DNA from: an uncultured Flavobacteriaceae bacterium
GTDB taxonomy: Bacteria > Bacteroidota > Bacteroidia > Flavobacteriales > Flavobacteriaceae
Direction: 5' to 3'
Assembly: GCA_937923515.1 (NCBI GenBank)
Contig: CALDUF010000029.1
Coordinates: 1 to 64,000, forward strand
DNA: 64,000 nt
Shown: positions 28,383-46,667 of the stretch, piece after piece
Layout of the letters: each line of letters opens with the position of its first letter
Numbering within the stretch: the first letter of the stretch is position 1
The notes under the pieces: generated by a model
Told to the model about the DNA's origin: nothing
Databases searched by the model: none
The model's input: the letters and a program-made list of their open reading frames with translations, nothing else
Translations under genes and position numbers: made by a program

Positions 28383-29663
28383 TTAATGTTGATTTGCGCG
28401 CCACTGCTCTGCAGTAGGAGGCACCTCAACAGTTGCCATCATCGCTTTTTTATTACCACCAAAGGTTTTAGTAATGGGGTTTCCAAAGCGTTTTAACCCA
28501 TTAAATGTGCCCTTATCTACCTCATCCCAAAGCACATATTTTGCTTTTCCATCTACAGTAAATAATCCAAAATGCTTTTCAGAATCTCCTGAATCTTCGC
28601 CGCCTTTCCATGGTTCATCAAATCCTTCAAAGTAAAAACACGCCATGTTAGCTGAATTAGTCCAATCTCTTACGTGGTTATAATACAGTGCTTCTTTGTA
28701 TTCGTCACAAGCTTTAGAGCCTTTAGTGCCGTAATATCCGGATGAAAAACTTGCCCATCCCGTTTCGCCTACATGAATGGGTTTATTTACACCCAAAGTT
28801 TCCATATACGCCTTTACGCTTTCTAGTTGCGCCATAGCGTAATTTTTAGCCCTTAGCATAGAAATTTCAATTTTTTCTATATCTGATTTGCCTTCTAAAC
28901 CGTCTTGATTTAACCAAAACTCTGGTTGGTAATGTGTATCGTGCATAGGGTAGGTGTGCACCGAGAGAAAATCTACCGCCTTAATGAGCTTATTTAAATC
29001 TTCTACGTGGTATTCTGTACCACCGCCGCCCCAAGACGCAAAATTATCTGAACTTGTTATCCATAAGTTTTTAGGCAGTTTACCTGTATTCTTTAAATCT
29101 TGTAAATGGGTAACCCATTTTAAAATAATCCATGGCTCAACATAATAGCTTGTGGCCCATTTTACCATAGCTTCGTTACCTACAGCCAATACTTTTACAA
29201 TATCTGGATATTGGTTTGCTAGTGCTACTGCTTTATCTATTTGCGCTGTGTTAGCTTTACTTTCTTCATTGTGAATAGGTGCTTGTTCTGTCCATGCATT
29301 TTTACAATCTATCCAAGCGCCAAGCATCACGTACATTTCAAAATTTGAATCTTCTTGTTTTAGTTCGCTAATTGCTTTTAGAAGATTTTCTGCTTGAGGC
29401 AAATGCACTTTGTAAGTGCGTACTATTCTAATACCCAAAACATGCAATAATCGCATATCTTCTTTCAATTCATCTAAGGTTGGTTCTATACTATGATCTG
29501 TATACCTATAACCACCATAAGACATGGCCAAATACTTAGGGTTTCCTAAAATATCTTTTGCTGTAAGTTGTGCTGTTGTGTCTTCTTTATTTTCAGATTT
29601 TTTTTTAGAAGTATTACATGCACACATCACAAACGCCAACAGTATAATGAGGTAATTTTTCAT
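28383..29663 (-). CDS. GH17-like glycosidase, lipoprotein
   Basis: Lipobox FVMCACNTS; LAVGNEAMVKWA and IHVGETGWASFSSG motifs. Confidence 0.75.
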   Translation of the reverse strand: MKNYLIILLAFVMCACNTSKKKSENKEDTTAQLTAKDILGNPKYLAMSYGGYRYTDHSIEPTLDELKEDMRLLHVLGIRIVRTYKVHLPQAENLLKAISELKQEDSNFEMYVMLGAWIDCKNAWTEQAPIHNEESKANTAQIDKAVALANQYPDIVKVLAVGNEAMVKWATSYYVEPWIILKWVTHLQDLKNTGKLPKNLWITSSDNFASWGGGGTEYHVEDLNKLIKAVDFLSVHTYPMHDTHYQPEFWLNQDGLEGKSDIEKIEISMLRAKNYAMAQLESVKAYMETLGVNKPIHVGETGWASFSSGYYGTKGSKACDEYKEALYYNHVRDWTNSANMACFYFEGFDEPWKGGEDSGDSEKHFGLFTVDGKAKYVLWDEVDKGTFNGLKRFGNPITKTFGGNKKAMMATVEVPPTAEQWRANQH

Positions 29664-29665
29664 AA

Positions 29666-30883
29666 TTAATAATTTACAACGCCAGCGCTCACAGGAGGCA
29701 CAAGCACATCCAAAAGCAAATCTTTTTCACTACCATTATAGGTTTTTGTAATTGCTATACCATCTCTAGTTAGCCCATTAAAAGCACCTTTATCTACCAA
29801 ATCCCAAATGGCGTATTTAGCTTCACCTTTCAAATTAATTAATCCAAAGTGGTTTTCAGACCCTAATGGATTTCCTGCATCTTTCCACTGCTCATCAAAT
29901 GCTTCAAAATAAAAACAAGACACGTGTTCTTTATTGGTCCACGCTCTCATTAATTGAAAATACCTGCCTGATTTATATTCATCAGCAGCCTTAGAACCAT
30001 TAGCACCGTAATGCTCGTTAGATATTGATGCCCAACCTGTTTCGCCAATATGTACCGGCTTATTAATACCTAAATGCCGCATGTAGTTGGTTACAGCATC
30101 AAACTGTTTTTGAGAAAATAACACAGCCCGCTGCATTGCAGATTCTACTTTTACTGTATCTGGTAATTCTAGTTCCTCTTGAGAAACTAACCAGAAAGCA
30201 GGATTATAGTGAGAGTTATGCATAGGGTAGGTATGCATTGAAATATAATCTACTGCTCTGATTAGGTTATTTAAATCTTCGGTATGGTAAACAGGATCGC
30301 CACCACCCCAAGAGGAAAAATCGTCTGAACTGGTTATCCATAAATTTTTGTCGAGTTCGCCATTACGTTTTAAATCTTGTAAATGGTTTACCCATTTTAA
30401 AATAACATTTGGACGCACATAATAACGTGTTGCCCATTGCACCATAGCTTCGTTACCAACAGCTATAATTTTAATAATATCTGGATATTGTTTTGCTAAA
30501 GCTACAGCTCTAGCTATTTCTCCTGCATTACGCTCACTCTCTACCTCGTGGTTTGGCTCAAACGCTGTCCATGCATTTTTACAATCTATCCAAGCGCCTA
30601 ACATTACATACATTTCAAAATTTGCATCTTCGGCTTTTAATTCAGAAATAGCTTTTAATAAATTAGGAGCCTGTTGTAATTGTACATTATAGGTTCTCAC
30701 AATTTTAACACCCATAGCTGCTAAAATTTTCATATCCTGTTTAAGTTGTGGTATTGTAGGTTGAATATCACGCGTTTTAGCACGATAACCACCGTAAGAG
30801 ATTGCCAAATAATTTGGGTTTCCTAAGATATCGGCAGCTGTTATCTGCTTTTTTGTATGTGCTATGTTGTGAGATATTTTCAT
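29666..30883 (-). CDS. GH17-like glycosidase paralog without signal peptide
   Basis: Long collinear similarity to 28383-29663; IAVGNEAMVQWA and VHIGETGWASISNEHYG; N-terminus MKISHNIAHTKKQITAADILG has no export signal. Confidence 0.75.
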   Translation of the reverse strand: MKISHNIAHTKKQITAADILGNPNYLAISYGGYRAKTRDIQPTIPQLKQDMKILAAMGVKIVRTYNVQLQQAPNLLKAISELKAEDANFEMYVMLGAWIDCKNAWTAFEPNHEVESERNAGEIARAVALAKQYPDIIKIIAVGNEAMVQWATRYYVRPNVILKWVNHLQDLKRNGELDKNLWITSSDDFSSWGGGDPVYHTEDLNNLIRAVDYISMHTYPMHNSHYNPAFWLVSQEELELPDTVKVESAMQRAVLFSQKQFDAVTNYMRHLGINKPVHIGETGWASISNEHYGANGSKAADEYKSGRYFQLMRAWTNKEHVSCFYFEAFDEQWKDAGNPLGSENHFGLINLKGEAKYAIWDLVDKGAFNGLTRDGIAITKTYNGSEKDLLLDVLVPPVSAGVVNY

Positions 30884-30935: not shown

Positions 30936-33900
30936 CTAATTTTTTATTGAAACAATTATTGAATGTATTTCGCCTTTTCTTTCAAAAATTGATTTCGATA
31001 TATTGCTGTTTAAGTGCATCGTATTTAGCTTTTCAGTTTTATTAGTATTAAAAATAACATCTACACATGCCTTATCAGATAACTGATAAATAATTGGGGT
31101 TTGGCAATAGGTAAAACACAATGTATTCGCAGCTAATTGAATGTTTTGAGTATCGCCATTTACATTTAAAAATGTAAATGTTGATGGCGTTTTTAAAAAT
31201 TCTTTGGTTTGTAATAAGCTTGGTTTAAAACTTAATTTACCAGCCTCTACAAATACGCCTAACTCCCCAAAACGGCTTAAGATATCTTCTTTAACTTGCC
31301 CTGTCATTCCTGGTTGTTGTGCGCCTTTTGTGGCTGGTGTATGCGAATACGGATCGGTTGAAAAAGCACCGTACAATTCTGGCGATTTATGCACACCAAT
31401 ACCTGCATTTATTTCGTAATAATGATCTAATAATCTGCCAATAATTTCGGGGGGTTCGTTTGTGTTTATAGCTAATAAGCAATTTTCTTGAACTGCCAAT
31501 AATAACTTAGATACCATGTGCCAATAAATAGACCCTAAACCTTCGTAACCGAAAAACGTACCTGATCGCCCTGTAAAGGATTTGTGATCAAAAATGTCTT
31601 CAAATATTTGAAGTAAAACATCAGTTTCGCTTTCAACTAATGCTTGGTAAGATGGGTTTAAATTTAAAAGTGCTTCTTTTAAACTATTGGCGTTATTAAA
31701 ATTGCTATTAAAATGATAACCGCCTTTAATATCTTTCTCAATAATCGCTCGGTTACCATCAGTAACTAATTGTTTTAATAGTGAAGATTTATGTACGCTT
31801 TCAAAAGGAATAGTGTTCTTTTTATCAAACCTTGGTAAATTTTTATTTGGATATAAAATATAACTGTACTGGTCTTCTCTAAACAATGCACTTTCTTTTA
31901 AACCATCTAATAAATGAAGTGCTTGGGTAGGTGAGAGGTATCCTGAACTTAAAGCCGCTACCTGACCTTCTAACATTTCAGACAAATAAGCAATAGACAC
32001 CTCATCATTAGTTTCAACCGTCATTAAATTGTACGCGTGGTACATGTTATCGTTGCGCTTATTCGCATCAATACTATGCTCTAAATATGACTTTGTAACC
32101 TCAATAAAACTTGAGATGTCGTTTAAAAATACTGTAGCTTTTTTACCCGAAAAACCATGGTTGTATATGGTGTTTCTATAATTGCTACTTGCACTTCCTA
32201 AACCATCAAGAACCGTTTTTCTATCCGTATCAGAAACAGCGCCAGATAGTATTTTTGCGTTGGCCTGCAGTGTTTGCTCTACTTGGTTAAAAAAGGTTAC
32301 CATTTCTTCTGAAATTTCAACGGCATCAATTTGAGATTTAGCTACTAATTTTTCAAAGAAATTTAAAAACCTATAGATGTAATACAATGTTACCATAGAC
32401 ACGCCATTGCCAACCAAAGCGTTGTTTGCGTCGTTCCATTCTGGACGCTGCGTATTTAACCAAATACCACCTTCTGGAATAAAATTTGAGATTTTAGACA
32501 GTACTGTTGCTAGTAGTTTTTCAATAAAATTAACTTTATAAATGCTGTTATTTTGGTCTCTTAACAATGCACCATCGGCACCTATTGCATCTCTACGCTC
32601 ATTAATTATGGCATCTAGTTTATGATCAAAATCAATAGTGTCCTTTGGGTTTTTTAGAGTATCTGCATAACTTTTAATTTTATAAGGCACGTTTGCATAC
32701 ACAAATACATTTTGGGTAAAGCGTTTCTCTAAAGTATTAGGGTAGTGGTTCTCTATAATTTCTAGGAATTTCAACAAATAAATAATTTGATGATCGCCCC
32801 AATACCCAATGTAAGACCAAGGGTCGTTTTCTTCAATAACCTCCCAATCAAAACCACTTTTAGTAACACGATATGGGTTGTAGCCTTCAAAAGTTGTAGC
32901 GTTTAAAAACTTATGAATCATCCCTTCTAAAAACTCAGGATAGGATAGTGATAAGGCTTCCCAGTTTTGAAAAATATCACGCCAGTTGCCTTCGTAATCT
33001 AAAATTTTAGAACCATCTATTTCGCTTCTAGTGTTTATAGAAAACTTATTCCAAGGTCTGCTAGGGTCTCCATGCCTTCTGCTAAATTTTAGAGGCAAAT
33101 ACTCAAAACACAAGCGTTTAAAATTAGTGTTATTGCTTGTTGTAGCTAGCGCGTAAATATTCTTTATATCGCATACATCGGGCAACGCATTAAGTATGGT
33201 TTTAGCTTCATGATACGCTTCTTTATTTGCTTTTGAAATGTATGTTATAAAGTCTGCCTTTTCAACAGTGTAGCCATCATCAAAAATACCGCCTCGCATA
33301 ATGTTAAACAGTGTATTTGAAAAATGCCTCATGTTAATTAAAGGATCTTCGCTTAACTGTAAACCATCAGATGCTGTTACTAAATTTATAAGTTGCTCTG
33401 TGCCTTTATCTATATTATCTTGAACAAGACATTTAAGATTACTTCTATTTTTTATGACTTCTGAAATGTGAACAATATCAGAAATAGACTGATTAACATT
33501 GGCTACAAACATCCAATTTTTGGAAGCATTTCCAGATAATTTAATTGTTGAAGACACAAAATAGGCGCCTTTTTCGGCTTTTATATCTACTTCTTCAGTA
33601 ATACCTTCTCCGTTTCTAAAACGGTCTAATTGTAATGAAGAAATAAGGCGGGTAGGGTTTTCTAATCCTGTAGACCAAACAATATTTGCTTTTAATGCTT
33701 CACTTGGTTCTGCTTTATCTACAATTACAGCACTAAGTGCATAAATGCCTAAACCAGCATCTTGCTGTAACTCGCTCTTTTTATATGCATCTACAAGGTT
33801 ACTTCTACTGGTTTGTAAATCTGAAGTTACACCTGCTGGTAATATATTTTGTAAACCATCTAAAACGGACACCTCAACAGTGTCTACTGACGTATTTATT

Positions 33901-34382
33901 AATGTAGATTTTTTTACAAAACCAAATTGATTGCTAGAATTCCATTGGTATCTAAAGGTTAACCCTAAATCTAGATTATGCGCTTCAAATACTACCTTAT
34001 TACCATATCTATTTTTATACAGATTGGTTTGCGTGTTGTAAATACCTATTTGTCGTATAGAAAATGGTTCCCAAAGGTGTGTGCTTCCATTTTTATGAAC
34101 TCTAAAAATGGCTTTACTTCCGGTAGTTTCGGCCATTTCGGTAATTTTATCGTCAGTGTAATATGGAAATAAAGCATACTCTGCATTTTTACGACCCGCT
34201 GTTAAACCACCATTACTAGAAATAAACATCCAGTGGTTAGAATCGCTTACAATACTCATAAAAAACGGACGCATTTTATCGCTATTGGCAATTTTATAAT
34301 ACGTTTCGTTTTCAAAAGTGATTAACTCTCCTTTTATCTCTTTAGTTTCGTTTGAAACGTGCTGTTCTTGAGTAATAATCAT
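30936..34382 (-). CDS. Candidate GH149/GH94-like beta-1,3-oligoglucan phosphorylase
   Basis: 1148 aa, no signal peptide; EGNWRDIFQNWEALSLSYPEFLEGMI, WSYIGYWGDHQIIYLLKFLE and RPEWNDANNALVGNG (GH94-like catalytic-Asp context); located in a beta-glucan PUL. Confidence 0.6.
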   Translation of the reverse strand: MIITQEQHVSNETKEIKGELITFENETYYKIANSDKMRPFFMSIVSDSNHWMFISSNGGLTAGRKNAEYALFPYYTDDKITEMAETTGSKAIFRVHKNGSTHLWEPFSIRQIGIYNTQTNLYKNRYGNKVVFEAHNLDLGLTFRYQWNSSNQFGFVKKSTLINTSVDTVEVSVLDGLQNILPAGVTSDLQTSRSNLVDAYKKSELQQDAGLGIYALSAVIVDKAEPSEALKANIVWSTGLENPTRLISSLQLDRFRNGEGITEEVDIKAEKGAYFVSSTIKLSGNASKNWMFVANVNQSISDIVHISEVIKNRSNLKCLVQDNIDKGTEQLINLVTASDGLQLSEDPLINMRHFSNTLFNIMRGGIFDDGYTVEKADFITYISKANKEAYHEAKTILNALPDVCDIKNIYALATTSNNTNFKRLCFEYLPLKFSRRHGDPSRPWNKFSINTRSEIDGSKILDYEGNWRDIFQNWEALSLSYPEFLEGMIHKFLNATTFEGYNPYRVTKSGFDWEVIEENDPWSYIGYWGDHQIIYLLKFLEIIENHYPNTLEKRFTQNVFVYANVPYKIKSYADTLKNPKDTIDFDHKLDAIINERRDAIGADGALLRDQNNSIYKVNFIEKLLATVLSKISNFIPEGGIWLNTQRPEWNDANNALVGNGVSMVTLYYIYRFLNFFEKLVAKSQIDAVEISEEMVTFFNQVEQTLQANAKILSGAVSDTDRKTVLDGLGSASSNYRNTIYNHGFSGKKATVFLNDISSFIEVTKSYLEHSIDANKRNDNMYHAYNLMTVETNDEVSIAYLSEMLEGQVAALSSGYLSPTQALHLLDGLKESALFREDQYSYILYPNKNLPRFDKKNTIPFESVHKSSLLKQLVTDGNRAIIEKDIKGGYHFNSNFNNANSLKEALLNLNPSYQALVESETDVLLQIFEDIFDHKSFTGRSGTFFGYEGLGSIYWHMVSKLLLAVQENCLLAINTNEPPEIIGRLLDHYYEINAGIGVHKSPELYGAFSTDPYSHTPATKGAQQPGMTGQVKEDILSRFGELGVFVEAGKLSFKPSLLQTKEFLKTPSTFTFLNVNGDTQNIQLAANTLCFTYCQTPIIYQLSDKACVDVIFNTNKTEKLNTMHLNSNISKSIFERKGEIHSIIVSIKN

Positions 34383-34463: not shown

Positions 34464-35333
34464 TTAATCTGCGGCGTAAACTCTAACATAGTCTACTTCC
34501 ATAGTTTGCGGATAGGGAATATTTGGGTCTGCGTTACCCACAAAACTTCCTCCAACAGCTACGTTTAAAAGAATGAAGAACTCACGGTCGTTAAATACCC
34601 AGTTTGCCCTGTTAATACCTTCTTCTTCTAAATCGTCAGGCGTAATTTGATTGTACAGTACATCATCTACATAATAATTGATGTAGTCTGGACCCCATTC
34701 TACTCCAAAAACATGAAAATCGGTATCAAATCGATCATTCATCAACTCGTACTGTTTTGTAATTGAATTTCCTCCAGAATATCCAGGACCGTGTACACTA
34801 CCATGAGTAATAGTAGGCTCTTGCCCTCTATATTCCATAATATCTATTTCGCCAATATTTGGCCATATTTCAAGACCATTGTTATCGTCTCCTAACATCC
34901 AAAATGCAGGCCATATCCCTTGTCCCCAAGGTAACTTGATACGCGCCTCAAAACGTCCAAATTTTTGTTGAAAACCGCCTCTTGTTAGAATTCTACCAGA
35001 GGTATAACTAGAACCCTCAAAAGTTTCTAAACGCGCACTTATTTTTAATACACCGTCTTCAACAGTTACGTTTTCAGGTCTGTCTGTATAGTACTGTTGC
35101 TCATTATTACCCCATCCTGGAATGCCTTGCGCTGAACCATCACCAATATCAAAAGACCATAAACTGGTGTTTAACGCTGTACCATCAAACTCTTCAGATA
35201 GTGTAAGTGTGTTAAAATTTGTAACCGTTTGTGCTTCGTCTGGATCACAACCTGTAATTATGCATAACAGGCCTATATAAAATGCTTTATATAAGATGAA
35301 TGCTTTATTTATATTGAAAATTTTATGTGTCAT
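34464..35333 (-). CDS. GH16 family laminarinase-like lipoprotein
   Basis: LSEEFDGTALNTSLWSFDIGDG, GEIDIMEYRGQEP active site; lipobox CIITGCDPD. Confidence 0.95.
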   Translation of the reverse strand: MTHKIFNINKAFILYKAFYIGLLCIITGCDPDEAQTVTNFNTLTLSEEFDGTALNTSLWSFDIGDGSAQGIPGWGNNEQQYYTDRPENVTVEDGVLKISARLETFEGSSYTSGRILTRGGFQQKFGRFEARIKLPWGQGIWPAFWMLGDDNNGLEIWPNIGEIDIMEYRGQEPTITHGSVHGPGYSGGNSITKQYELMNDRFDTDFHVFGVEWGPDYINYYVDDVLYNQITPDDLEEEGINRANWVFNDREFFILLNVAVGGSFVGNADPNIPYPQTMEVDYVRVYAAD

Positions 35334-35351: not shown

Positions 35352-36785
35352 TTAATTTTCTGAGTAGAAATAAATGTTATCTAGAGATACATTAGCTAGT
35401 GTGCCTGATGAAAATATGATAGCGCCTAAGGCATCTTTAGTATTAAGACCAGCAAAACTTGATAACGGAATATCAAATTCTACCCACTCATTACTTGCTA
35501 AATCGTTACCCGAAACATTAAAGCCTCCTGCTGTTTGACTTCCCGTAGCAAAATTGTTAAATACTTCTATTCTAAAAGTATCTGATGGATTTACCTGTTG
35601 GTTTACTCTAATATCGATATGCAGGTGTGTCATTTCACTAGCATCAATAGGTTGTATGCCACTACCTTCTCTACCGTAAAATTCTATTGCTACAAAATTT
35701 AGCAGGGTATAATCTATAATATTATTGCCATTTTCGTTTACAGCACCACCAAGTGTAGTTTGGCCATCTGGTGTGTAAAACCCGTTAAAATTATCTACTG
35801 GTACGTTGGCAAAAATGTCGCTGAAAATTGAAATAACGTTGAGGTTAACCGCTTGAACAATTAAAGAACCAGCCGCTTGAACACCTGCTACAGAAGCAGT
35901 AATTACGGCTGTATTATCAATCTCGCCGGTGTCTGGATCTATTTCTCCCGAGCCTTCTACAGTTACCAAACCTTGATTGGTTACTGATGCTACGAATGGA
36001 TTTGAGGTTTCAAAATCAAAATACGCAGGCGTTGCAGTAACCGTTACATCTTGTCCATTTGCTAAATTAAAGGTTTGTGTTAATCCAATAATAGATACAG
36101 AACTATCCACATTTGTTTGCGCAGTTTGATCTAGCCCACCTAAAATTGCTGGCCTTGGTTGCCCAAGTGTTCCTAAATTTTCAAATCTTAACTCATCAAT
36201 CCAAAAGGTATAACCCACACCATTTGTACTTTCTGTTCCTGCAGAAAAAAGAAACATCCCCTTTTCTTGTGTTAATTTTGAAGGGTCTGGAATAGGTATA
36301 ATATACTTTCTCCATTTGGTAGAAAGTTCTATATTATTTAACGAAACAGCGTATGTATTATCAATAAAATCTGTACCAAAACCTACTGTACCAACAACTG
36401 CTGTTGTGGAGCCCTTAGCCCAAAATGTTAAAGCATCATAGCTTGTTAAGTCTCTACCATCGCCTCTATCTCTAAATATGCCACCTATAAAACCTCCATC
36501 TGGATCTGTAGGTGTAGGTACATCAATTCGTATGGAAGAATTGCCCTCGAACGCTACATTATCGTCTGTTCCAAAACCTTCAGTATTGGCTCCAAAAGCT
36601 GGGTCGAAGGATTCGAAAAACTGATCTGTAAGTCCTACTGGGGCATCCGTAAAGATATCTGGATTGTTTGGAAACGTAGCAAATTCTATATCATCAGAAA
36701 AGCCTCTTTCGCAACTTATCATACCAACACATAGTAACCCTAAAACAGGATATAGTACGTGGTATTTAAAATTTAATTTTTTCAT
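35352..36785 (-). CDS. Surface glycan-binding-type lipoprotein with Ig-like domain
   Basis: Lipobox VGMISCERG; Big_2-like stretch and C-terminal VISIFSDIFANVPVDNFNG...MTHLHIDIRV related to a domain in 18337-19776. Confidence 0.65.
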   Translation of the reverse strand: MKKLNFKYHVLYPVLGLLCVGMISCERGFSDDIEFATFPNNPDIFTDAPVGLTDQFFESFDPAFGANTEGFGTDDNVAFEGNSSIRIDVPTPTDPDGGFIGGIFRDRGDGRDLTSYDALTFWAKGSTTAVVGTVGFGTDFIDNTYAVSLNNIELSTKWRKYIIPIPDPSKLTQEKGMFLFSAGTESTNGVGYTFWIDELRFENLGTLGQPRPAILGGLDQTAQTNVDSSVSIIGLTQTFNLANGQDVTVTATPAYFDFETSNPFVASVTNQGLVTVEGSGEIDPDTGEIDNTAVITASVAGVQAAGSLIVQAVNLNVISIFSDIFANVPVDNFNGFYTPDGQTTLGGAVNENGNNIIDYTLLNFVAIEFYGREGSGIQPIDASEMTHLHIDIRVNQQVNPSDTFRIEVFNNFATGSQTAGGFNVSGNDLASNEWVEFDIPLSSFAGLNTKDALGAIIFSSGTLANVSLDNIYFYSEN

Positions 36786-36798
36786 AATTACAATGCTT

Positions 36799-39700
36799 TT
36801 ATTTTCCTATGTTAATGTGGATGTATGTTCTTATTTCCCATTCTGATCCGTTAGGGAACCCTACAGGACTAATTGTTGGTTCTGTAGCAAATTCAGGCGT
36901 TTGGTTTGGTGCGTAACGAGGTGAATTTTGGTCTAAAGAACGCCACATCCCTCTAATACCTATTTGTGTGTTTGGTAAAATAAACCAATCTGGTTTTCCT
37001 AAGGTTGTAGATACATCTAGCATTAGCTGTAATGGAAATGTTAAGTTAAAATCACGATGATAATCAAAAGGGCCCCAATCGTTCACTTTAATATGAGACA
37101 TTAGCTTAAGCTTGTTGTACAACATTCTTATATCGCCACCAAAGCGTGTAATCGTTCTATCAGAATCACCATTTGCTTGTCCGTTTCCGTAGTAAAAATT
37201 ACCAATAATGCCTAAGTCTGGATTTAGCTTAGAAACTATACGTGTATGTGCTTCCCATAAATCTTGTGCTGGAGCAGATTCTCCAAAAGCAAAAAACTGA
37301 CGATTCGCTAAAAACCCAATATGCGCATCTTGCGTTGTTGGTAAATGCCTGTACACAAACCCTGCACTCATTGCAAATTTTGCGTCTTCGGCTCTATCAT
37401 TATCCCACTCGTACATCCACGATCCTGGAGTAGGGTCGTAAGTAAATAGTATTTCACCCGCTGTAGCTTCTCTATTGCCACCTCTTACGGCAAACGGATC
37501 GTCAATAACGTTTCTTAAACGCCCAGGTCCTGGAACACCATTTGGCATAGGATCTACCAAAGGTTTTTGATACATAAAATTAGGAGCAATTTGTAAATCT
37601 CCAGCTAATAGCGTTAATCCAGTTAAAAAATTAGTCATGTTTCCACTACCGGAATCTCTAAGTTTCCAGCCTGTAAAAGTTCTTGTTTGATCTGCGCCAC
37701 CATTGGCAACTAAGCCCATGTAAGACCCTTGTGCGTACCAATTAAATCGTCCTTTTTGATAGGTGATTTTGGCTTTAGCACCCCAATTATCCTTACTGTT
37801 TATTTTATCTACCAAAACAATATCGGTATTGTCATCATAGATTTGAAAAGAACTGCCGTTTAACGGATTTCCACCCCAAATACCTCCTAAAGTAAGACCG
37901 AAATTTCCAAAATCTCTTTCTAAAGCTAATGTTGCTCTTTCGGTTGGCCATGGCGGTATAACACCACTACGTAACTGATTTTGGTCTAGAACACGTCGCC
38001 CCGTGTTATCAAACTCCAAATCTGTATTAAGATCGCGATGGTAAATACCTGTAACATCCCATTTAAATATATTCTTAGAATATTTGAATAACATGGTTGG
38101 GTTTGCTCCCCACCATAATTGCGGCCCAAATGCAGCTTTTAAACCTTCTAAATCGCCTTTAGCATCGATTTCCATTCCTAAAATTTCACCGTTGTAGATG
38201 TCTAAATTAGGCCCATAATTAGCTTCTGGATATAGATTAAAAATATCACCTTCGTATGCCCAATGGTAATGCCCTGTTCTGTAGAATCCTCTAACATCTG
38301 CAGCTTTACCTTTCCATTCAAATTCAGCATTATAAACACGCACACGATTATTATCGGTAATAACCACTTCTTCGCCTTCGCCATTAAGTACCGTCATGCG
38401 GCGGCCTACGTTTTCATAAAAGATTTCGTTAATAGGATTTTCGGCTACATTGCCTAGAATATTGAAATTTACGTTAGCACTCATATTTGGTGCGGGGTTA
38501 GCACCTACACCTACAAAATAAGATTGCATGTGATCGAAACCAAGTTGGTTTGGAAACGTTTGCGTATCGTTAGGGTCTGCGTTATCAGGCGTTGTAATTA
38601 AACTGCCTCCCGTATTAAAGGTTGTAAATTCTGCTCTTAATTGGCTAAGGTGAATTTTCTCGTTACCACCTAAGGCCGCTTTATCACCTCTAGCTCTCAA
38701 CACAGCATCCATAAGGTTTACGTTTTTAAAATAATTGTTTAAAAACGCTGTATCCATACCATCGGCGTAAACATCTAAATTATGTACTTCTTTAAGCGCA
38801 TAATATGCTGCACGAGGGTATAGTGTATATAAACCTCTTGCATTTGTTGGCCCTTTTGCACAAACACCAAACCACTCTTCATTCATATTATTTTGACCTG
38901 GTTTATGATCTAAATAATAGCCACCATTTTCCCAAGATGCGTTATTATCGTGTACCTCTAAATTTTTAGTTTGACCAAACTTCCACCAGCCATCACTAAA
39001 CTGAAACGTAAAACCACCTATAGCGTTATCATTACCATCTAAACCTGCAACATTGCTATAAATATCTTTCCAGTTATTTACCATATAAAATGCTTGTGAT
39101 TTTTGGTCTTCTTGATTTTCAATAGCATTAAAAGCATCGGCACCAAACTCTGTAAATAATACAGGTTTATTAAGCTTTTCTTTTACGGTATCGAATAAAT
39201 CTGTAAAGTTTACCCCGCGGTATGCATTTACGCCGTAAATATCTACGTCTTTACACTCTTCGGCTATTATATCAATAAATAATACATCACCATTACAAAT
39301 AGCTACTGGGTGCGAACCATCAATAGCTTTCATTTGTGCAGCAGCATCATTCATTAACTTATACATTGGTCTACCTCGCTTTTCTCCAACTTCTCTTTTC
39401 TTATCTTCTTCATCGGGAAAGTCTTCAGTTTCTGCACCGGCCCAAAACAGGCCGTAATTATTTTCATTTCCTAATAAATAAAGTAATAGTCCTGGTGTGT
39501 TTTTATATTCTTTGGCTAGTGCGGTAGCTTCAGCCAATAATAACTCTTGTGTAGATTTTCCTCTGTAATCTGTTACAGCTACCCAAGCACCGTCTATGGT
39601 TAGTCCATACCTACCAAAAGAGTGATTAAGCATGGTGTAGATACCATAATTTTCATAGATGTATTGAATCCATTTTGGCTGAACACCAGTATACATTCTT

Positions 39701-39966
39701 ACCGCGTTTACGCCCATATTTTGGAGTAAACCCATTTCAGCATCTAGCGCAGCTCTGATAATATCATCAGACTGATTCCATAAACTGTATGAATAATTAG
39801 TACCAATAGGAAAATAATCCCAATTCATACCATTCACAATGAAATCTTCGCCATTAACGACTAATTTCATGCCCTCTTCGTTATTTACAACACTTACTTT
39901 TTGCTCTTGCGCATAAAAGGAGGTAGTGAATGAGAAAAAGAGTAATACTAAAACAATGTTCTTCAT
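36799..39966 (-). CDS. TIM-barrel (GH2/clan A-like) glycosidase fused to C-terminal putative outer-membrane beta-barrel
   Basis: Signal peptide; GMNWDYFPIGTNYSYSLW, LLGNENNYGLFW and PVLFTEFGADAFN (two candidate catalytic Glu); residues ~430-1055 show alternating aromatic-rich strands ending WEIRTYIHINIGK. Confidence 0.75.
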   Translation of the reverse strand: MKNIVLVLLFFSFTTSFYAQEQKVSVVNNEEGMKLVVNGEDFIVNGMNWDYFPIGTNYSYSLWNQSDDIIRAALDAEMGLLQNMGVNAVRMYTGVQPKWIQYIYENYGIYTMLNHSFGRYGLTIDGAWVAVTDYRGKSTQELLLAEATALAKEYKNTPGLLLYLLGNENNYGLFWAGAETEDFPDEEDKKREVGEKRGRPMYKLMNDAAAQMKAIDGSHPVAICNGDVLFIDIIAEECKDVDIYGVNAYRGVNFTDLFDTVKEKLNKPVLFTEFGADAFNAIENQEDQKSQAFYMVNNWKDIYSNVAGLDGNDNAIGGFTFQFSDGWWKFGQTKNLEVHDNNASWENGGYYLDHKPGQNNMNEEWFGVCAKGPTNARGLYTLYPRAAYYALKEVHNLDVYADGMDTAFLNNYFKNVNLMDAVLRARGDKAALGGNEKIHLSQLRAEFTTFNTGGSLITTPDNADPNDTQTFPNQLGFDHMQSYFVGVGANPAPNMSANVNFNILGNVAENPINEIFYENVGRRMTVLNGEGEEVVITDNNRVRVYNAEFEWKGKAADVRGFYRTGHYHWAYEGDIFNLYPEANYGPNLDIYNGEILGMEIDAKGDLEGLKAAFGPQLWWGANPTMLFKYSKNIFKWDVTGIYHRDLNTDLEFDNTGRRVLDQNQLRSGVIPPWPTERATLALERDFGNFGLTLGGIWGGNPLNGSSFQIYDDNTDIVLVDKINSKDNWGAKAKITYQKGRFNWYAQGSYMGLVANGGADQTRTFTGWKLRDSGSGNMTNFLTGLTLLAGDLQIAPNFMYQKPLVDPMPNGVPGPGRLRNVIDDPFAVRGGNREATAGEILFTYDPTPGSWMYEWDNDRAEDAKFAMSAGFVYRHLPTTQDAHIGFLANRQFFAFGESAPAQDLWEAHTRIVSKLNPDLGIIGNFYYGNGQANGDSDRTITRFGGDIRMLYNKLKLMSHIKVNDWGPFDYHRDFNLTFPLQLMLDVSTTLGKPDWFILPNTQIGIRGMWRSLDQNSPRYAPNQTPEFATEPTISPVGFPNGSEWEIRTYIHINIGK

Positions 39967-40086: not shown

Positions 40087-40561
40087 TTATCTTACAAATT
40101 TGAATGACCAATAGCCACCGCCAGCTATTTCAATATCAATTTCCATAGTATCACCATTTAAAAGTACCATATAGGTAATTTCGTCTGGTGCATCGGCAGG
40201 GTTTGCTAATTCTGATCCGTTAATCACTTTAGCCAAACCTAAGAAAGCGCCTCTACCGTTTAAGGTTAGCGTACCAGCAGCTTCATTATAACTATAGGTT
40301 GCTGTTGCACTTCCATCGTGTGGGAATACAGGCGCACCACAAGACTCTGGATCTGATCCTTGCCATCCTTCTAACCATGTTGCACTTCCTAATACATTTT
40401 CAAAAGAGCCGTCTGCATTAAATACATACTCGTCATCAAATAAACAATCTCTATCTGTTACTGCTTCACTAGGGCTAGACCACCATGATACATCATTAAG
40501 TCCAGGACCCACACCTAAAGCACCAGCTTCTGGCGCTATTTTCCAACGACCAACTATTGGG
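40087..40561 (-). repeat. Tandem module copy 3
   Basis: Protein repeat starting PIVGRWKIAPEAGALGVGPGLNDVSWWSSPSEAVTDRDCLFDDEY. Confidence 0.8.
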
Positions 40562-41973
40562 TTTGCTGGTGGTACGTCTTTTACAAGTTTGAAAGACCAA
40601 TAGCCACCACCTGCAATTTCAATATCTATTTCCATAGTATTGCCATCAATAGTAGCCATATACGTTATAGCATCTGGAGCATCAGCAGGGTTTGCCAATT
40701 CTGCGCCATTTATCACTTTAGCTAATCCTAAGAATGCACCTCTACCGTTTAAAGTTACCGTGCCAGCAGCTTCATCATAACTATAGGTTGCTGTTGCACT
40801 TCCATCGTGTGGAAATACTGGTGAACCACAAGCTTCAGGGTCTGTTCCTTGCCATGCTTCTAACCATGTTGCGCTTCCTAAAGCGTTTTCAAAAGTACCA
40901 TCGGCATTAAATACGTATTCATCATCAAACAAACAATCTCTATCTGTTACTGCCTCGCTTGGGCTAGACCACCATGATACATCGTTAAGTCCTGGACCAA
41001 CTCCTAAAGCACCAGCTTCTGGCGCTAACTTCCAACGCCCAACAATTGCATTTGATACTACTTCTTTATTAAATTTAAAAGACCAATGGCCCCCTCCAGC
41101 AATTTCTATATCAACTTCCATAGTATTGCCTTCAATTGTAGCTATGTAAGTTACACTGTCTGGAGCATCAGCAGGATTTTCTAATTCTGCTCCGTTAATT
41201 ACTTTAGCTAAACCTAAAAACGCACCTCTACCAGTAAGTGTTACTGTACCGGCAACTTCATCAAAATTATAAGTTGCAGAACCGCTACCATCATGAGGGA
41301 AAACTGGTGCTCCACATTCTTCTGCAGCTGCACCTTGCCATGGTTCTATCCACGTTTGGTCTCCTAGTACATTTTGGAATGTACCATCTGCTCTAAAAAT
41401 ATAAGCATCGTCAAACAAACATGCTCTTGTAGCTACATCTGCTTCGCTATTTGACCACCATGATACATCATTAAGCGCTGGACCAACGCCTAAAGCACCA
41501 GCCTCTGGCGCTAATCGCCATGTACCAACAATTGGAGAATCCATTCCACCAACGTTACCAGGATTATTTACCACAGGACTAAATACTACAGTGTGTTCTT
41601 TTGAAATTACAACATCCTCTCTTCCTGCTAAAGATGCTGTTACCGTAATTACATATGTTGCTGTTTCTTCTGGGTATTCGTAAGTAACCATAGGACCGCT
41701 TGTCATTTGAATAACGTCAGTTGGATCTCCATTTCCATCGGGTAAATCTACACCGTTTGGATCTCCAAAATTTACAGTATATACGATACGGCCATCGCCA
41801 GGTACTGTTGTAGGAACAATTCCTGTTCTTGTACCTTCCGCGTTTAGTTCTGCAATATTAAAATCTAGTCCTGCAATAATGTTTAATTGGTCATCTTCTT
41901 CACAAGACAGTGTTATGCCCAATAGTAGCAATACTGCTAAAATTTTGTAAGCTTCTCTTTTTAATACATTCAT
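40087..41973 (-). CDS. SusE-position lipoprotein: PKD-like N-terminus plus three near-identical ~155-aa modules
   Basis: Lipobox ITLSCEED; three copies of IVGxWxxAPEAGALGVGPxLNDVSWWS...FPHDGS...GRGAFLGLAKVINGxEL. Confidence 0.85.
   Translation of the reverse strand: MNVLKREAYKILAVLLLLGITLSCEEDDQLNIIAGLDFNIAELNAEGTRTGIVPTTVPGDGRIVYTVNFGDPNGVDLPDGNGDPTDVIQMTSGPMVTYEYPEETATYVITVTASLAGREDVVISKEHTVVFSPVVNNPGNVGGMDSPIVGTWRLAPEAGALGVGPALNDVSWWSNSEADVATRACLFDDAYIFRADGTFQNVLGDQTWIEPWQGAAAEECGAPVFPHDGSGSATYNFDEVAGTVTLTGRGAFLGLAKVINGAELENPADAPDSVTYIATIEGNTMEVDIEIAGGGHWSFKFNKEVVSNAIVGRWKLAPEAGALGVGPGLNDVSWWSSPSEAVTDRDCLFDDEYVFNADGTFENALGSATWLEAWQGTDPEACGSPVFPHDGSATATYSYDEAAGTVTLNGRGAFLGLAKVINGAELANPADAPDAITYMATIDGNTMEIDIEIAGGGYWSFKLVKDVPPANPIVGRWKIAPEAGALGVGPGLNDVSWWSSPSEAVTDRDCLFDDEYVFNADGSFENVLGSATWLEGWQGSDPESCGAPVFPHDGSATATYSYNEAAGTLTLNGRGAFLGLAKVINGSELANPADAPDEITYMVLLNGDTMEIDIEIAGGGYWSFKFVR
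40562..41052 (-). repeat. Tandem module copy 2
   Basis: Protein repeat starting IVGRWKLAPEAGALGVGPGLNDVSWWSSPSEAVTDRDCLFDDEY, almost identical to copy 3. Confidence 0.8.
41053..41537 (-). repeat. Tandem module copy 1 (more diverged)
   Basis: Protein repeat starting PIVGTWRLAPEAGALGVGPALNDVSWWSNSEADVATRACLFDDAY. Confidence 0.8.
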
Positions 41974-42008: not shown

Positions 42009-43565
42009 TTAGTATCCTGGGTTTTGCCCCCAAGTATCTTCTGCAAGCGCCAACCTAAGTTCTATTTGAGGAATAGGGAACACTTCGTTTTTATTTTCAG
42101 TATAATTTACTGGCTCAAAATCCATTGGTTTATTAGCGTTGTAGGCATCAAAAGCAGCTTTAGCTCTTCCTGTTCGAACTAAATCGAAAAAACGATGGCC
42201 TTCTCCTGCTAATTCTTTTCTACGCTCTTGATAAATAACATCAAGTAATGCACCTTCTGAAGCTACATAATCTCTACTATTATCACCAAAGGCTCTTGCT
42301 CTTACAGCATTAAGATAGGTTTCTGCATTGGCACCTCCTGTTTGAGCTTCGGCTTCGGCAGCCATTAATAATACATCGGCATACCGTATGGCTCTATAGT
42401 TATTTTTATGCACTAATTCTGCTGTATTTGCATTGCCTGCTTTATCAGCTTTTCGTGGCATATACTTATGATTGTAAAACCCAGTATCTTCTCTAGGTGC
42501 TGAATAATTTCCGCCAGAATCTCTTAATGCTCTTAAATCGAAAATAGTAACATCTCTTCGTGCATCGTTCTCATCGTATAAATCATATAACATTTGAGAC
42601 GGTAATAAAAAGCCCCAACCCGAAGCATACACTGGATCATCGAATGGAGAACGTGGCCCATTAAATTGTACAAAGTAAGAACCCTCGCTACAATGTATGC
42701 AACCCCAACCGGCGCCTTCAACATTTGTGTATTGAATTTCGAATACGGATTCTGATCCGTTTTCTCCAGCAGTAGTAAACATATTTACATAGTTTTCTCC
42801 AGTAGTTAAATCGTATTGATTACTTGCGATTACTTGATTTAAAACCGTAGCAGCATCTCCAAATTCGCCATCATATAAATACGCTTTACCCAATAATGCT
42901 TGTGCAGCACCTTTGGTAATTTCATAAGGCTGATCTTGTGTTACTGGTAAATTGGGTATGGCTTCTTTTAAATCTTCTTGAATCAAATCATAAGCAACGG
43001 CAATACTAGATACTCGTTGCATGCTTAGTTCGTCTCCTGCTAAAACTTGGGCATCTTCAATTCTAGGAACACCATTTCGCTCAGCTACTTTTAATGGAAT
43101 ATTTCCAAAAAACTTTACCAATTCAAACGTATAAAAAGCCCTTAGAAAATAGCCTTGTGCTAAAATTTCGTCTTTTCCAGCAAAATCCAATTTATCTTTA
43201 TTTTCTAGTAAGTAATTTACGCGATTCATACCCGCATACATTAATTGCCAAATGCTTCTTAATTGCTCTTGGTCTGCTGGTGTTTGAATCATGTAGTTTA
43301 CATTTTGTACAACTGGCTGATCGAAATTAAAAGCATCACCTCCTGATCCATAGTCGTCAGAGGCTGATACTGCTATCAGGTTATTCCAAAACGTACCTTG
43401 TAATAAATCGTATGCGCCAATTAACGCCGCTTCATATTCTTCTTCAGAATTAAAGAAGTTATCGGCATTAGGGCCTATAGGCTCAACTTCGGTAAACTCA
43501 TCACAAGCGGCCAAAGTAATCAGTACTGTTAGCAGTACGTACTTTAATTTTTTTATCTTTTTCAT
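42009..43565 (-). CDS. susD: RagB/SusD family nutrient uptake lipoprotein
   Basis: AACDEFTEVEPIGPNADNFFNSEEEYEAALIGAYDLLQ and C-terminal YLNAVRARAFGD...ERRKELAGEGHRFFDLVRTG...FPIPQIELRL. Confidence 0.96.
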   Translation of the reverse strand: MKKIKKLKYVLLTVLITLAACDEFTEVEPIGPNADNFFNSEEEYEAALIGAYDLLQGTFWNNLIAVSASDDYGSGGDAFNFDQPVVQNVNYMIQTPADQEQLRSIWQLMYAGMNRVNYLLENKDKLDFAGKDEILAQGYFLRAFYTFELVKFFGNIPLKVAERNGVPRIEDAQVLAGDELSMQRVSSIAVAYDLIQEDLKEAIPNLPVTQDQPYEITKGAAQALLGKAYLYDGEFGDAATVLNQVIASNQYDLTTGENYVNMFTTAGENGSESVFEIQYTNVEGAGWGCIHCSEGSYFVQFNGPRSPFDDPVYASGWGFLLPSQMLYDLYDENDARRDVTIFDLRALRDSGGNYSAPREDTGFYNHKYMPRKADKAGNANTAELVHKNNYRAIRYADVLLMAAEAEAQTGGANAETYLNAVRARAFGDNSRDYVASEGALLDVIYQERRKELAGEGHRFFDLVRTGRAKAAFDAYNANKPMDFEPVNYTENKNEVFPIPQIELRLALAEDTWGQNPGY

Positions 43566-43568
43566 TGC

Positions 43569-46500
43569 TTAAAAATTTAAATTAACACCTAATAAGTATG
43601 TGGCTGCAACAGGATAAAATCCTTTATCGATACCTCCGCCAATAGGCGCGCCGTTTGTTGCTGACGGATCGTAGCCATTATAATCTGTAAGGGTAAATAC
43701 ATTGTTACCCGTTACGTAAATTCTAAGTTTATCAATACCTGTTTCTTTTAGTGCATTTGGATTTACAGTATATCCTAACTGAATGTTTTGTAATCGTAAA
43801 AATGATGCATCTTCTACGACAAAATCTGAAAACAGGTCTGTATTTATATTTGCTCCTGCTACTGCTCTTGGCACGAAATTGCTAGTACCACTACCTTGCC
43901 AACGCTCTAACACATAAGTGCCTCTATTTGCAAATAAATCTTTACGTTCATAATCTCTTACCATATCATTACCAACAGATGCAAATGCGTTTGCACTAAA
44001 ATCGATGTTTTTATAAGCGAACCCTATATTAAAACCAAAGGTAAAATCTGGAATGGCATCGCCAATATTAGTTCTATCATCGTCTGTAATTTGTCCATCG
44101 CCATTGGTATCTACAAATCTTAAGTCGCCTGGAGCAATATCACCCACAGTGCTGTATATACCAGTTGGAGACGCAGCGTTTAAAACATCTATTTCTTGTT
44201 GTGTTTGGTAAAGGCCATTTGTTTGGTAGCCATGAAAATACCCTAGTGGTAAACCCACTACCATTCTTGAAATATCATTTTGACTGATACCTACCCCAAA
44301 TTCACCACCTGGTGGTACGTCTCTGCCATTTAATGAGGTTACTTCGTTTTCAAGATAGGTCATATTAAAGCTCATATTGAATTCGAAATCGTCTGAAAAA
44401 TTATCATTATACGCTATTAAAAATTCAACACCTTTATTTTCGACTGTTCCCGCATTAATAAAAGGAGAGGCTGCTCCTGGTGCACCTACACCTAATACAC
44501 CAGGTGCTTGGGGTTGTATTAAAAGGTCTTTGGTTTGTTTTCTAAATACATCGGCAGTTATGTTAAGTTTATTATTAAACAACCTTGCATCTATACCAAT
44601 GTTACCTGTTTCTTGTTCTTCCCATTTCAGGTTTGGATTTCCAATTGTACCAGCACCAACACCATTTAATAAATCGTCTTCAATTGTTGTATTTCCTGAA
44701 TCTATAGTTGCTTCACCGTTTAGTCTTGTAAGAAATGCAAAGTCACTTATTCTATCATTACCAATAATACCATAACTCGCTCTAAATTTGAGGGAATTAA
44801 CCCATCCTCCTGTATTAAAGAAATCTTCCTCAGAAATATTCCATCCTATGGAACCAGAAGGGAAATAACCAACATTATTATTATTTAATGTTGAAAATCT
44901 AGAAGAGACATCTCTACGAATTACACCAGATAGTAAGTACTTATCTTTATAGTTATATTGTAATCTGGCAAACGTGGAAGATAAACGAGAATCAAACTGA
45001 TCGCCTCCTAACGCTTTTGAGGCATCATTAATTCTATCAGAAAGCACGCCTTCAACTCTATCTCCTAGCCATCCATCAACAAATGCATCTGAAACTGAGT
45101 TACTCCCATTGCGTAACTGTTGACCGCTTTCACCATAAAATTGACCTCTAGTTCTAAATGTAGACATACCTAATAATGCAGTAATATTATGTACTTCATT
45201 AAATGTATTGGTGTAATTAATAAAATTATCCCAAGTGTAGTCTGTAAACAAATCACTAAAATCTTGAACTTCATTTATAGCTCTGTTGTTTGATTTTCCA
45301 TTACCAAAATCTACTACGGGAAAAAACACATCGTTTAAAACATTGGCGTAATTAATTTGAAATTTAGAGCTCACTGTAAAGTGTTCTAAAAATGTATAAT
45401 CTAAGCCTAATGTTCCACTATATCTATCAATTCTCGTCATATTATGCGTGTTGGCAATTTGCGCCAAAGGATTAATAATTTCAATCTGAGAAATATCATT
45501 AGCTAAAGAAAAATCGCCGTTTTCATCTCGCAATGGTAAATTAGGGTTTATATTCACCGCACTATATAACACAGAACCAATACTACCTTCAGGTAAATTT
45601 TGTTTTGTTGAATTTGTTAATAAGGCGGTTGCCGATAATTTCAAGTTATCCAAAATATCATATTGATAGCCCAAACGTGCTGTAAACCTCTCAAAATTAT
45701 TTTTACTTGCACCAACAATACCATCTTGGTCTAAATAAGACATCCCAAATGTGTAGGCTGATTTTTTTGTACCACCACTTCCGCTAAAGTTTACATTTGA
45801 AATTGCTGCTGTTTGAAACACTTCATCCTGCCAATCGGTACCTTCTTGAGGAAATACGAAAAAACGTGTTTCGTCAGCCGCATCATTTACATAAATACCG
45901 AAGTTTAACGGATCTAATAAATCTATTTTTTTACTCGTAGTTTGAAAACCTGTGTAAGCATCGACTTGAAACTTTAATTCAGAATTTTTTCTGCCTGTTT
46001 TAGTAGTAATCAAAATAACACCGTTGGCACCACGAACACCATAAATACCTGCTGTAGCATCCTTTAGTACGTTTATACTTTTGATATCATTTGGATTAAT
46101 TACAGAAAGGTCTACAATAACATTGCCATCTACAAGAATTAAAGGGCTGTTGTCGCCATTAGTAGTTATACCACGAATTCTAATATTAGCGCCTGCACCA
46201 GGAGAACCTGATGTTGATGTTACGTTAACACCCGCAATTTGCCCTTGTAATGCCTGCTCTACGCGTTGCGGATTTAGTTTTTCAATAGCTTCAGAAGTTA
46301 CTACAGAAACAGCACCTGTTACTTCTTTTTTTCTTTGAACACCATACCCCACAACAACAACCTCATCAAGTGTTGCCAAATCTTCCTCTAATTGAACAGA
46401 AATTGCGTTGGCATTGGTTACCACAACATCTTTAGTAATATACCCTATAAAACTAAACGTTAGCGTTGTGCCTAATTTAATATCTGTTAACGAAAAATTG

Positions 46501-46667
46501 CCATCAAAATCTGTAACAGTACCTTTTGATGTGTTTTTCACAATAACATTAACACCTGGAATAGGTAAGCCTGAATTGTCCAGTACAGTGCCCTTAATAT
46601 CTAAATTTTGTGCGCCAATGTAGCCGACAAAAAAAAGCATTAACCATTTAATTAATGTGTGTCTCAT
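43569..46667 (-). CDS. susC: SusC/RagA family TonB-linked outer membrane protein
   Basis: Carboxypeptidase-D-like N-terminus DIKGTVLDNSGLPIPGVNVIVKNTSKGTVTDFDGNFSL, EEVVVVGYGVQRKKEVTGAVSVV, and plug motifs IRIRGITTNGDNSPLILVDG. Confidence 0.97.
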   Translation of the reverse strand: MRHTLIKWLMLFFVGYIGAQNLDIKGTVLDNSGLPIPGVNVIVKNTSKGTVTDFDGNFSLTDIKLGTTLTFSFIGYITKDVVVTNANAISVQLEEDLATLDEVVVVGYGVQRKKEVTGAVSVVTSEAIEKLNPQRVEQALQGQIAGVNVTSTSGSPGAGANIRIRGITTNGDNSPLILVDGNVIVDLSVINPNDIKSINVLKDATAGIYGVRGANGVILITTKTGRKNSELKFQVDAYTGFQTTSKKIDLLDPLNFGIYVNDAADETRFFVFPQEGTDWQDEVFQTAAISNVNFSGSGGTKKSAYTFGMSYLDQDGIVGASKNNFERFTARLGYQYDILDNLKLSATALLTNSTKQNLPEGSIGSVLYSAVNINPNLPLRDENGDFSLANDISQIEIINPLAQIANTHNMTRIDRYSGTLGLDYTFLEHFTVSSKFQINYANVLNDVFFPVVDFGNGKSNNRAINEVQDFSDLFTDYTWDNFINYTNTFNEVHNITALLGMSTFRTRGQFYGESGQQLRNGSNSVSDAFVDGWLGDRVEGVLSDRINDASKALGGDQFDSRLSSTFARLQYNYKDKYLLSGVIRRDVSSRFSTLNNNNVGYFPSGSIGWNISEEDFFNTGGWVNSLKFRASYGIIGNDRISDFAFLTRLNGEATIDSGNTTIEDDLLNGVGAGTIGNPNLKWEEQETGNIGIDARLFNNKLNITADVFRKQTKDLLIQPQAPGVLGVGAPGAASPFINAGTVENKGVEFLIAYNDNFSDDFEFNMSFNMTYLENEVTSLNGRDVPPGGEFGVGISQNDISRMVVGLPLGYFHGYQTNGLYQTQQEIDVLNAASPTGIYSTVGDIAPGDLRFVDTNGDGQITDDDRTNIGDAIPDFTFGFNIGFAYKNIDFSANAFASVGNDMVRDYERKDLFANRGTYVLERWQGSGTSNFVPRAVAGANINTDLFSDFVVEDASFLRLQNIQLGYTVNPNALKETGIDKLRIYVTGNNVFTLTDYNGYDPSATNGAPIGGGIDKGFYPVAATYLLGVNLNF

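Follow-up and report, generated by a model that had tools for sequence, protein, structure and literature searches.

Bacteroidota are major consumers of laminarin, the uptake of which is generally assumed to proceed via SusC/D, and the genes of SusC/D are used to define and to count laminarin loci. Enzymes that share a single chain with an outer-membrane barrel are known among the autotransporters (type Va EstA, type Vd PlpD), where barrels of 12 or 16 strands serve display or secretion. GH158 endo-beta-1,3-glucanases (BuGH158, PDB 6pal; GH158(Pro), PDB 9oro/9p26) are proteins of about 400 residues with a C-terminal Ig-like domain. From Formosa, the laminarin-debranching FbGH30 and the MFS-GH17 fusion FbGH17B have already been described (PMC6246565). 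In laminarin PULs of Muricauda, according to PMC13188888 (2026), a gene listed as “GH2 beta-glycosidase” lies upstream of the block formed by GH17, GH30 and MFS, together with GH16 and GH149, and a beta-1,6-glucosidase role is suggested for it; no porin, SusD or TonB protein is mentioned in the searched text. GH2 is also listed in laminarin PULs of Croceitalea and Croceivirga (PMC11345257). Laminarin-type PUL-like loci without expressed susCD were reported from the Arctic spring (PMC10811738), and in North Sea bloom bacteria “GH0” genes occur beside GH149 and GH16_3, some of them among the most expressed (PMC10108472). Whether the loci or the “GH0” genes of these last two studies include the gene described here is not established.

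Here, we describe a gene for a glycosidase fused to a predicted outer-membrane barrel (P0001, 36799..39966) in the window, i.e. the whole analysed stretch of 64,000 nucleotides from an uncultured Flavobacteriaceae bacterium. This gene and all features of the window given below lie on the minus strand. Its reading frame of 1055 residues, supported also by the family alignments A1 and A2, is uninterrupted from the ATG start to a single stop at 36799-36801. A sequence-only reading had proposed such a fusion at exactly this position, and all motifs that it quoted (LLGNENNYG, LFTEFGAD, FNWYAQGSYMGLVANGG, LQIAPNFMYQKPL, GIIGNFYYGNGQ and WEIRTYIHINIGK) are found in the protein. The chain begins with a Sec-type signal peptide without lipobox (residues 1-20, 39907..39966, MKNIVLVLLFFSFTTSFYAQ) in which Q20 is invariant; a lipobox pattern occurs in just 2 of 82 relatives. 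The combination of enzyme and membrane barrel in one chain is well supported by prediction.

In comparison with the systems mentioned above, the fusion protein, with its predicted barrel, shares with the SusC/SusD importers an outer-membrane barrel encoded in a Bacteroidota glycan locus, but it has neither plug nor CarbopepD domain, is predicted to form 24 instead of 22 strands and brings its own enzyme. With MFS-GH17 it has in common the linkage of a transporter to a laminarin enzyme, even within the same locus; MFS-GH17 is, however, a helical transporter of the inner membrane, of which the fusion protein would be the outer-membrane counterpart. EstA and PlpD likewise carry an N-terminal enzyme and a C-terminal outer-membrane barrel in one chain but lack the 24 strands with conserved lumen. 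To the GH158 enzymes there is a likeness in the clan GH-A TIM barrel, the aligned glutamate pair and the beta-1,3-glucan context, whereas the sequence similarity is only remote (12-15% in Foldseek alignments) and an outer-membrane barrel replaces the Ig-like domain. The “GH2” of the Muricauda and Croceitalea PULs (PMC13188888, PMC11345257) is evidently the same gene, treated in the accessible parts of both sources as an ordinary glycosidase without mention of a barrel. For Muricauda this is inferred from synteny: one of our loci (L063) lies on the very contig SGIU01000001.1 listed in PMC13188888, and the neighbours match. An enzyme and an outer-membrane barrel in one chain are known in principle, but in the literature searched we found no account of one that comes from a glycan locus and resembles this protein in size, operon and distribution. 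No description of the barrel was found there either, subscription papers and preprints being outside the search.

The N-terminal half is assigned to a clan GH-A TIM-barrel domain (residues ~24-395, 38782..39897) on the basis of profile comparison with PDB sequences, AF2 modelling and Foldseek. The best profile match is GH158 (9oro, E 2.1e-10), with GH2 enzymes close behind, and the GNE and TEFG motifs of 9oro line up with E168 in the GNEN motif (39463..39465, candidate acid/base) and E273 in the FTEFG motif (39148..39150, candidate nucleophile). Foldseek with the AF2 model of this half returned GH158 (E 2.9e-14) and GH157 with laminaribiose (E 2.3e-12), and further down the list the yeast beta-1,3-glucanosyltransferase Gas2. 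Both glutamates are invariant in the alignments A1, A2 and A3 of 14, 58 and 15 sequences, the last of which takes in barrel-less cousins at about 27% identity. The TIM barrel with two candidate catalytic glutamates, as initially proposed, is therefore supported by profile match, model, fold comparison and conservation alike. GH-like binding proteins exist, and the enzymatic activity of the fusion protein is unmeasured, so that a catalytically idle sensor or binding protein, whose TIM barrel merely binds glucan and whose membrane barrel is structural, can be conceived. We nevertheless regard this as very improbable, since both catalytic residues and the motifs around them are invariant down to the barrel-less cousins.

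The domain agrees with GH158 as far as profile similarity, clan GH-A fold and the positions of acid/base and nucleophile at strands 4 and 7 are concerned. The C-terminal Ig-like domain of this family is absent, however, and helices and barrel stand in its place in the AF2 model and the Foldseek comparison; with this domain missing and without a CAZy model an assignment to GH158 is not claimed. Pfam hardly recognises this half, Glyco_hydro_cc staying below cutoff for the window protein; the GH2 TIM-barrel model gave no report here but reached or exceeded the cutoff in three relatives. GH2 membership was rejected on domain layout, because in the AF2 model the TIM barrel begins right after the signal peptide and the sugar-binding and Ig-like domains that precede it in GH2 are absent. 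Judged from similarity and models, the enzyme half is of a type that cuts beta-1,3-glucan, its activity being inferred. A barrel-less cousin of the enzyme, mostly lipoprotein-like and 336-347 residues long, was found in three sister loci of the same taxonomic family (L138:8758-9768 on the plus strand, also L139 and L140). There it is flanked by GH17 and GH30 in a laminarin cluster that is otherwise similar, which ties the enzyme family to beta-1,3-glucan and makes the cousin a natural contrast for what the barrel adds. Besides the fusion gene, its genomes contain a second, weakly matching family (26-30%) of about 603 residues with a related GH-A domain and a C-terminal extension (L021:1336-3144 from the window's own genome, G000:C2, and L022-L025).

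Two linker helices (residues 406-414 and 418-437, 38656..38751, from AF2 models) connect the enzyme with the C-terminal domain (residues 438-1055, 36802..38655). The full-length AF2 model is of moderate confidence (pLDDT 74.9, pTM 0.53) and a separate model of residues 400-1055 reached a pTM of 0.70. Both agree in two helices followed by 24 long antiparallel strands, from 438-454 through 1041-1054 and spanning about 617 residues, which supplies the strand count that the sequence-only reading had suggested as a check. Strands were counted from the DSSP string, leaving out a few short extra strands inside loops. Their connections strictly alternate between long ones of 7-37 residues and mostly short ones of 2-6 residues (two of 11 and 20), from which, by the usual rule for outer-membrane barrels, both barrel ends are placed in the periplasm. 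The hydrophobic/polar alternation in the predicted strands exceeds that of shuffles of each strand (summed z = 4.7), and when hydrophobicity is used to tell the two faces apart, conservation is higher on the inward than on the outward one in 20 of 24 strands (0.84 vs 0.73, permutation p = 0.001). The prediction thus has what is expected of an outer-membrane barrel: long antiparallel strands that are amphipathic and even in number, short turns on the periplasmic side and long loops outside.

Sequence comparison with PDB and Pfam, whether of the entire protein or of its barrel half, was of no help for the barrel; no Pfam family is reported in the C-terminal half and hence no plug domain PF07715, which the SusC of the window possesses. 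When the barrel model was compared by Foldseek, practically all of the top 50 matches were outer-membrane barrels (BtuB3, OccAB3, MOMP, FepA, LptD, ZnuD, sucrose porin, Mtr complex, AlgE and FimD). Their TM-scores are low (about 0.2-0.4), as has to be expected if the strand number differs from that of most matches, so that the comparison indicates the class but no specific relative. These matches are also at odds with soluble beta-sandwich repeats, which would have refuted the initial proposal of a C-terminal membrane barrel. A large soluble beta-structure could be argued from the missing Pfam and PDB sequence matches, the final residue being Lys instead of an aromatic one and the moderate AF2 confidence, but in view of the Foldseek matches, the alternating long and short loops and the amphipathic strands we hold it to be scarcely tenable. 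With two models, Foldseek and the conservation statistics in its favour, the C-terminal half is by prediction well supported as an outer-membrane beta-barrel, which would make a very large pore; that it is closed and inserted in the membrane is inferred, with Foldseek in support.

Three long loops of this barrel are 96-99% conserved, namely GHYHWAYEGDIFNLYPEANYGPNLDIYNG (residues 565-593, 38188..38274, mean conservation 0.96), predicted to be extracellular or lumenal, LWWGANP (residues 617-623, 38098..38118, 0.99) and GPFDYHRDFNL (residues 965-975, 37042..37074, 0.99). This is more than a mere anchor should need, and the nearly equal overall conservation of barrel (0.77) and enzyme (0.80) also argues against a pure anchor. 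Both observations bear on the main rival explanation, an autotransporter-like protein whose barrel acts as translocator and anchor and whose glycosidase is threaded through it, so that a second endo-laminarinase is displayed at the surface. The layout of type V is indeed that of an enzyme at the N-terminus, followed by a helix of some 20 residues and by a barrel at the C-terminus, the helix 418-437 leads straight into strand 1 in the AF2 models, and surface enzymes beside uptake proteins are normal in PULs. The type Va translocator with its 12 strands and about 280 residues is not matched, however, by 24 modelled strands in about 617 residues; the high conservation of lumen and long loops is unexpected for an anchor, and a simple lipoprotein would suffice for display, as the barrel-less cousin shows. 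We therefore consider surface display possible but rather unlikely. The sequence-only reading had left open a surface- or periplasm-facing enzyme. With both barrel ends in the periplasm the latter remains as default, and the former would need threading through the barrel. The side of the enzyme is nevertheless only inferred, since no coordinates or PAE stand behind the domain placement in the AF2 model, and for the same reason a position of the linker helix inside the barrel, as in autotransporters, is not excluded.

The fusion gene belongs to a laminarin utilisation locus at about 18.3-49.7 kb of the window, all on the minus strand. It begins with a Reg_prop/Y_Y_Y/LuxR-HTH regulator of the locus (46903..49716, Pfam), followed by the TonB-dependent transporter SusC (43569..46667, PF07715, PF00593, PF13715), SusD (42009..43565, PF07980) and the upstream neighbour of the fusion gene, a lipoprotein of 628 residues (40087..41973). 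This one is built with three repeats of ~150 residues that are nearly identical, matches no Pfam family convincingly and is likely to bind glycans at the surface. On its downstream side the fusion gene is directly followed by a co-operonic lipoprotein of 477 residues (35352..36785), a putative surface glycan-binding protein, and a GH16 lipoprotein (34464..35333, PF00722, 8.3e-25), a putative surface endo-laminarinase. The next product (30936..34382), without Pfam model, we take from family knowledge and locus context to be a GH149-type beta-1,3-glucan phosphorylase. Then follow a GH17 without visible signal peptide (29666..30883, PF00332), a GH17 lipoprotein (28383..29663, PF00332), a GH30 lipoprotein of the debranching beta-1,6-glucosidase type (26865..28367, PF02055), the inner-membrane importer MFS-GH17 (24499..26844, Pfam MFS_2 and GH17), a further GH17 without visible signal peptide (23570..24496, PF00332), an FG-GAP/UnbV-ASPIC repeat lipoprotein of 1096 residues (20139..23429) and a type IX sorting-domain protein. 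GH16, GH17, GH30 and GH149 thus occur together with glycan uptake genes, as required of a laminarin locus. Two fusions of a membrane protein with an enzyme, enzyme-barrel and MFS-GH17, are found in it.

Acidic residues after the lipid cysteine are a sign of surface lipoproteins. Such residues are found in GH16 and the 477-residue lipoprotein, like in SusD, and lysine-rich ones in GH17, which suggests the surface for the former two and the periplasm for GH17. Enzyme-barrel partnerships occur also in exopolysaccharide export, and AlgE is among the Foldseek matches of the barrel; a system of AlgE or PgaA type, in which a beta-glucan or another polysaccharide made by the cell leaves through the barrel and is trimmed by the enzyme during its exit, has to be considered for this reason. 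It is very improbable in our opinion, as the content of the locus is catabolic (GH16, GH17, GH30, GH149, MFS), the locus in the window showed no sign of a polysaccharide synthase, and laminarin induces a Formosa cluster that corresponds to it for the most part (PMC6246565, compared in PMC13188888), which is not shown for the fusion gene itself.

Among the 82 loci compared, the 477-residue lipoprotein directly follows the fusion gene in 78 of the 79 that have a following ORF, and GH16 comes next after it in 74 of 75 (median gap 9 bases). The fusion gene hence heads a near-universal operon of fusion gene, lipoprotein and GH16 in laminarin loci, 57 of the 82 having also a GH149 homologue. A regulator is located directly upstream in 43 of 77 relatives, with a gap of typically about 300 bases, and homologues of the three-repeat lipoprotein occupy this position in 14 of 77. 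The gap between regulator and fusion gene measures 158-643 bases in 45 of 46 loci and is the likely place of promoter and regulator site. SusC and SusD are less regular companions, present in 21 and 20 of the 53 loci longer than 22 kb, and in 32 of these 53 no SusC is found within about 10 kb of the fusion gene. In 17 genomes whose locus lacks SusC, SusC-like genes are numerous at other places, but a full-length one at least 44% identical to the laminarin SusC of the window exists in just 3 of 17; independence from SusC at genome level is not shown. In Bacteroides finegoldii the locus comprises regulator, fusion gene, lipoprotein, GH16, a fimbrillin-family protein, a hypothetical protein and BglX, with no SusC/D annotated. 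This operon (L026:9937-22903) lies on a contig filed as plasmid, which is suggested to be chromosomal because it carries genes for valyl-tRNA ligase and rpsA.

Scanning 85,462 species genomes with a sequence pattern confirmed at least 528 relatives. Full-length relatives of 57-77% identity occur in many genera, and the family extends to B. finegoldii and Persicobacter (56-61% identity). The barrel profile matches 30 of 297 Bacteroidota genomes (21 of 141 genera). All 28 near-full-length matches are fused, in open frames of 1028-1084 residues, the three other rows being either short fragments or a frame interrupted by a stop, and a barrel without enzyme was never found among the 297 genomes sampled. 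The architecture search refines the initial proposal insofar as the fusion is no local oddity but a widespread, architecture-locked family. A local accident or assembly chimera was rejected, as the same fusion with conserved flanks exists in hundreds of genomes. We conclude that the fusion is real, widespread and evidently under-annotated.

We lean, without great certainty, towards a beta-1,3-glucan enzyme-porin, i.e. a barrel that passes laminarin oligosaccharides and an enzyme that cuts or transfers them at its periplasmic mouth. What favours a channel over a passive anchor is that lumen and loops are conserved, that the fusion is fixed and that loci without SusC exist. Once exported by Sec, the protein would insert its C-terminal barrel of 24 strands into the outer membrane, while surface GH16 and the surface lipoprotein encoded by the next two genes would capture and cut laminarin. 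Fragments might then pass through the lumen of the barrel, along conserved loops rich in aromatic and charged residues, and the GH158-like domain at the periplasmic mouth could hydrolyse or transglycosylate the emerging glucan, a processing that would keep transport inward. The degradation would be completed in the periplasm by GH30 and GH17, at the inner membrane by the MFS-GH17 importer and in the cytoplasm by the GH149 phosphorylase. In loci with SusC/D the enzyme-porin may work beside this pump, and where the pump is missing it might be the principal way in across the outer membrane. Prediction and conservation support the fusion, the catalytic pair of clan GH-A, the outer-membrane barrel, the operon and the laminarin context. 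The product-channelling role already considered in the sequence-only reading remains an inference, as do substrate, reaction and side of the enzyme; pore, substrate and reaction are not shown, and no experiment exists on any family member. Against the enzyme-porin it can also be said that SusC and SusD are present in the locus of the window itself. Only tentatively, and with doubts that outweigh our confidence, can this reading be extended to a widespread enzyme-gated outer-membrane channel which takes beta-1,3-glucan fragments into Bacteroidota without the TonB-dependent SusC/D pump and whose enzyme, cutting or transferring the emerging substrate, pulls it through.

Laminarin accounts for more than 10% of annually fixed carbon dioxide (PMC11345257). 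If the enzyme-porin reading is true, an entry route has been missed: about a tenth of the Bacteroidota species sampled (30 of 297) would have an enzyme-porin that is annotated as GH2 and in many cases has no SusC beside it. It would also offer a clean test case for catalysis coupled to transport in one outer-membrane chain, and the enzyme-porin may be an overlooked route by which cells take up one of the main storage sugars of the ocean.
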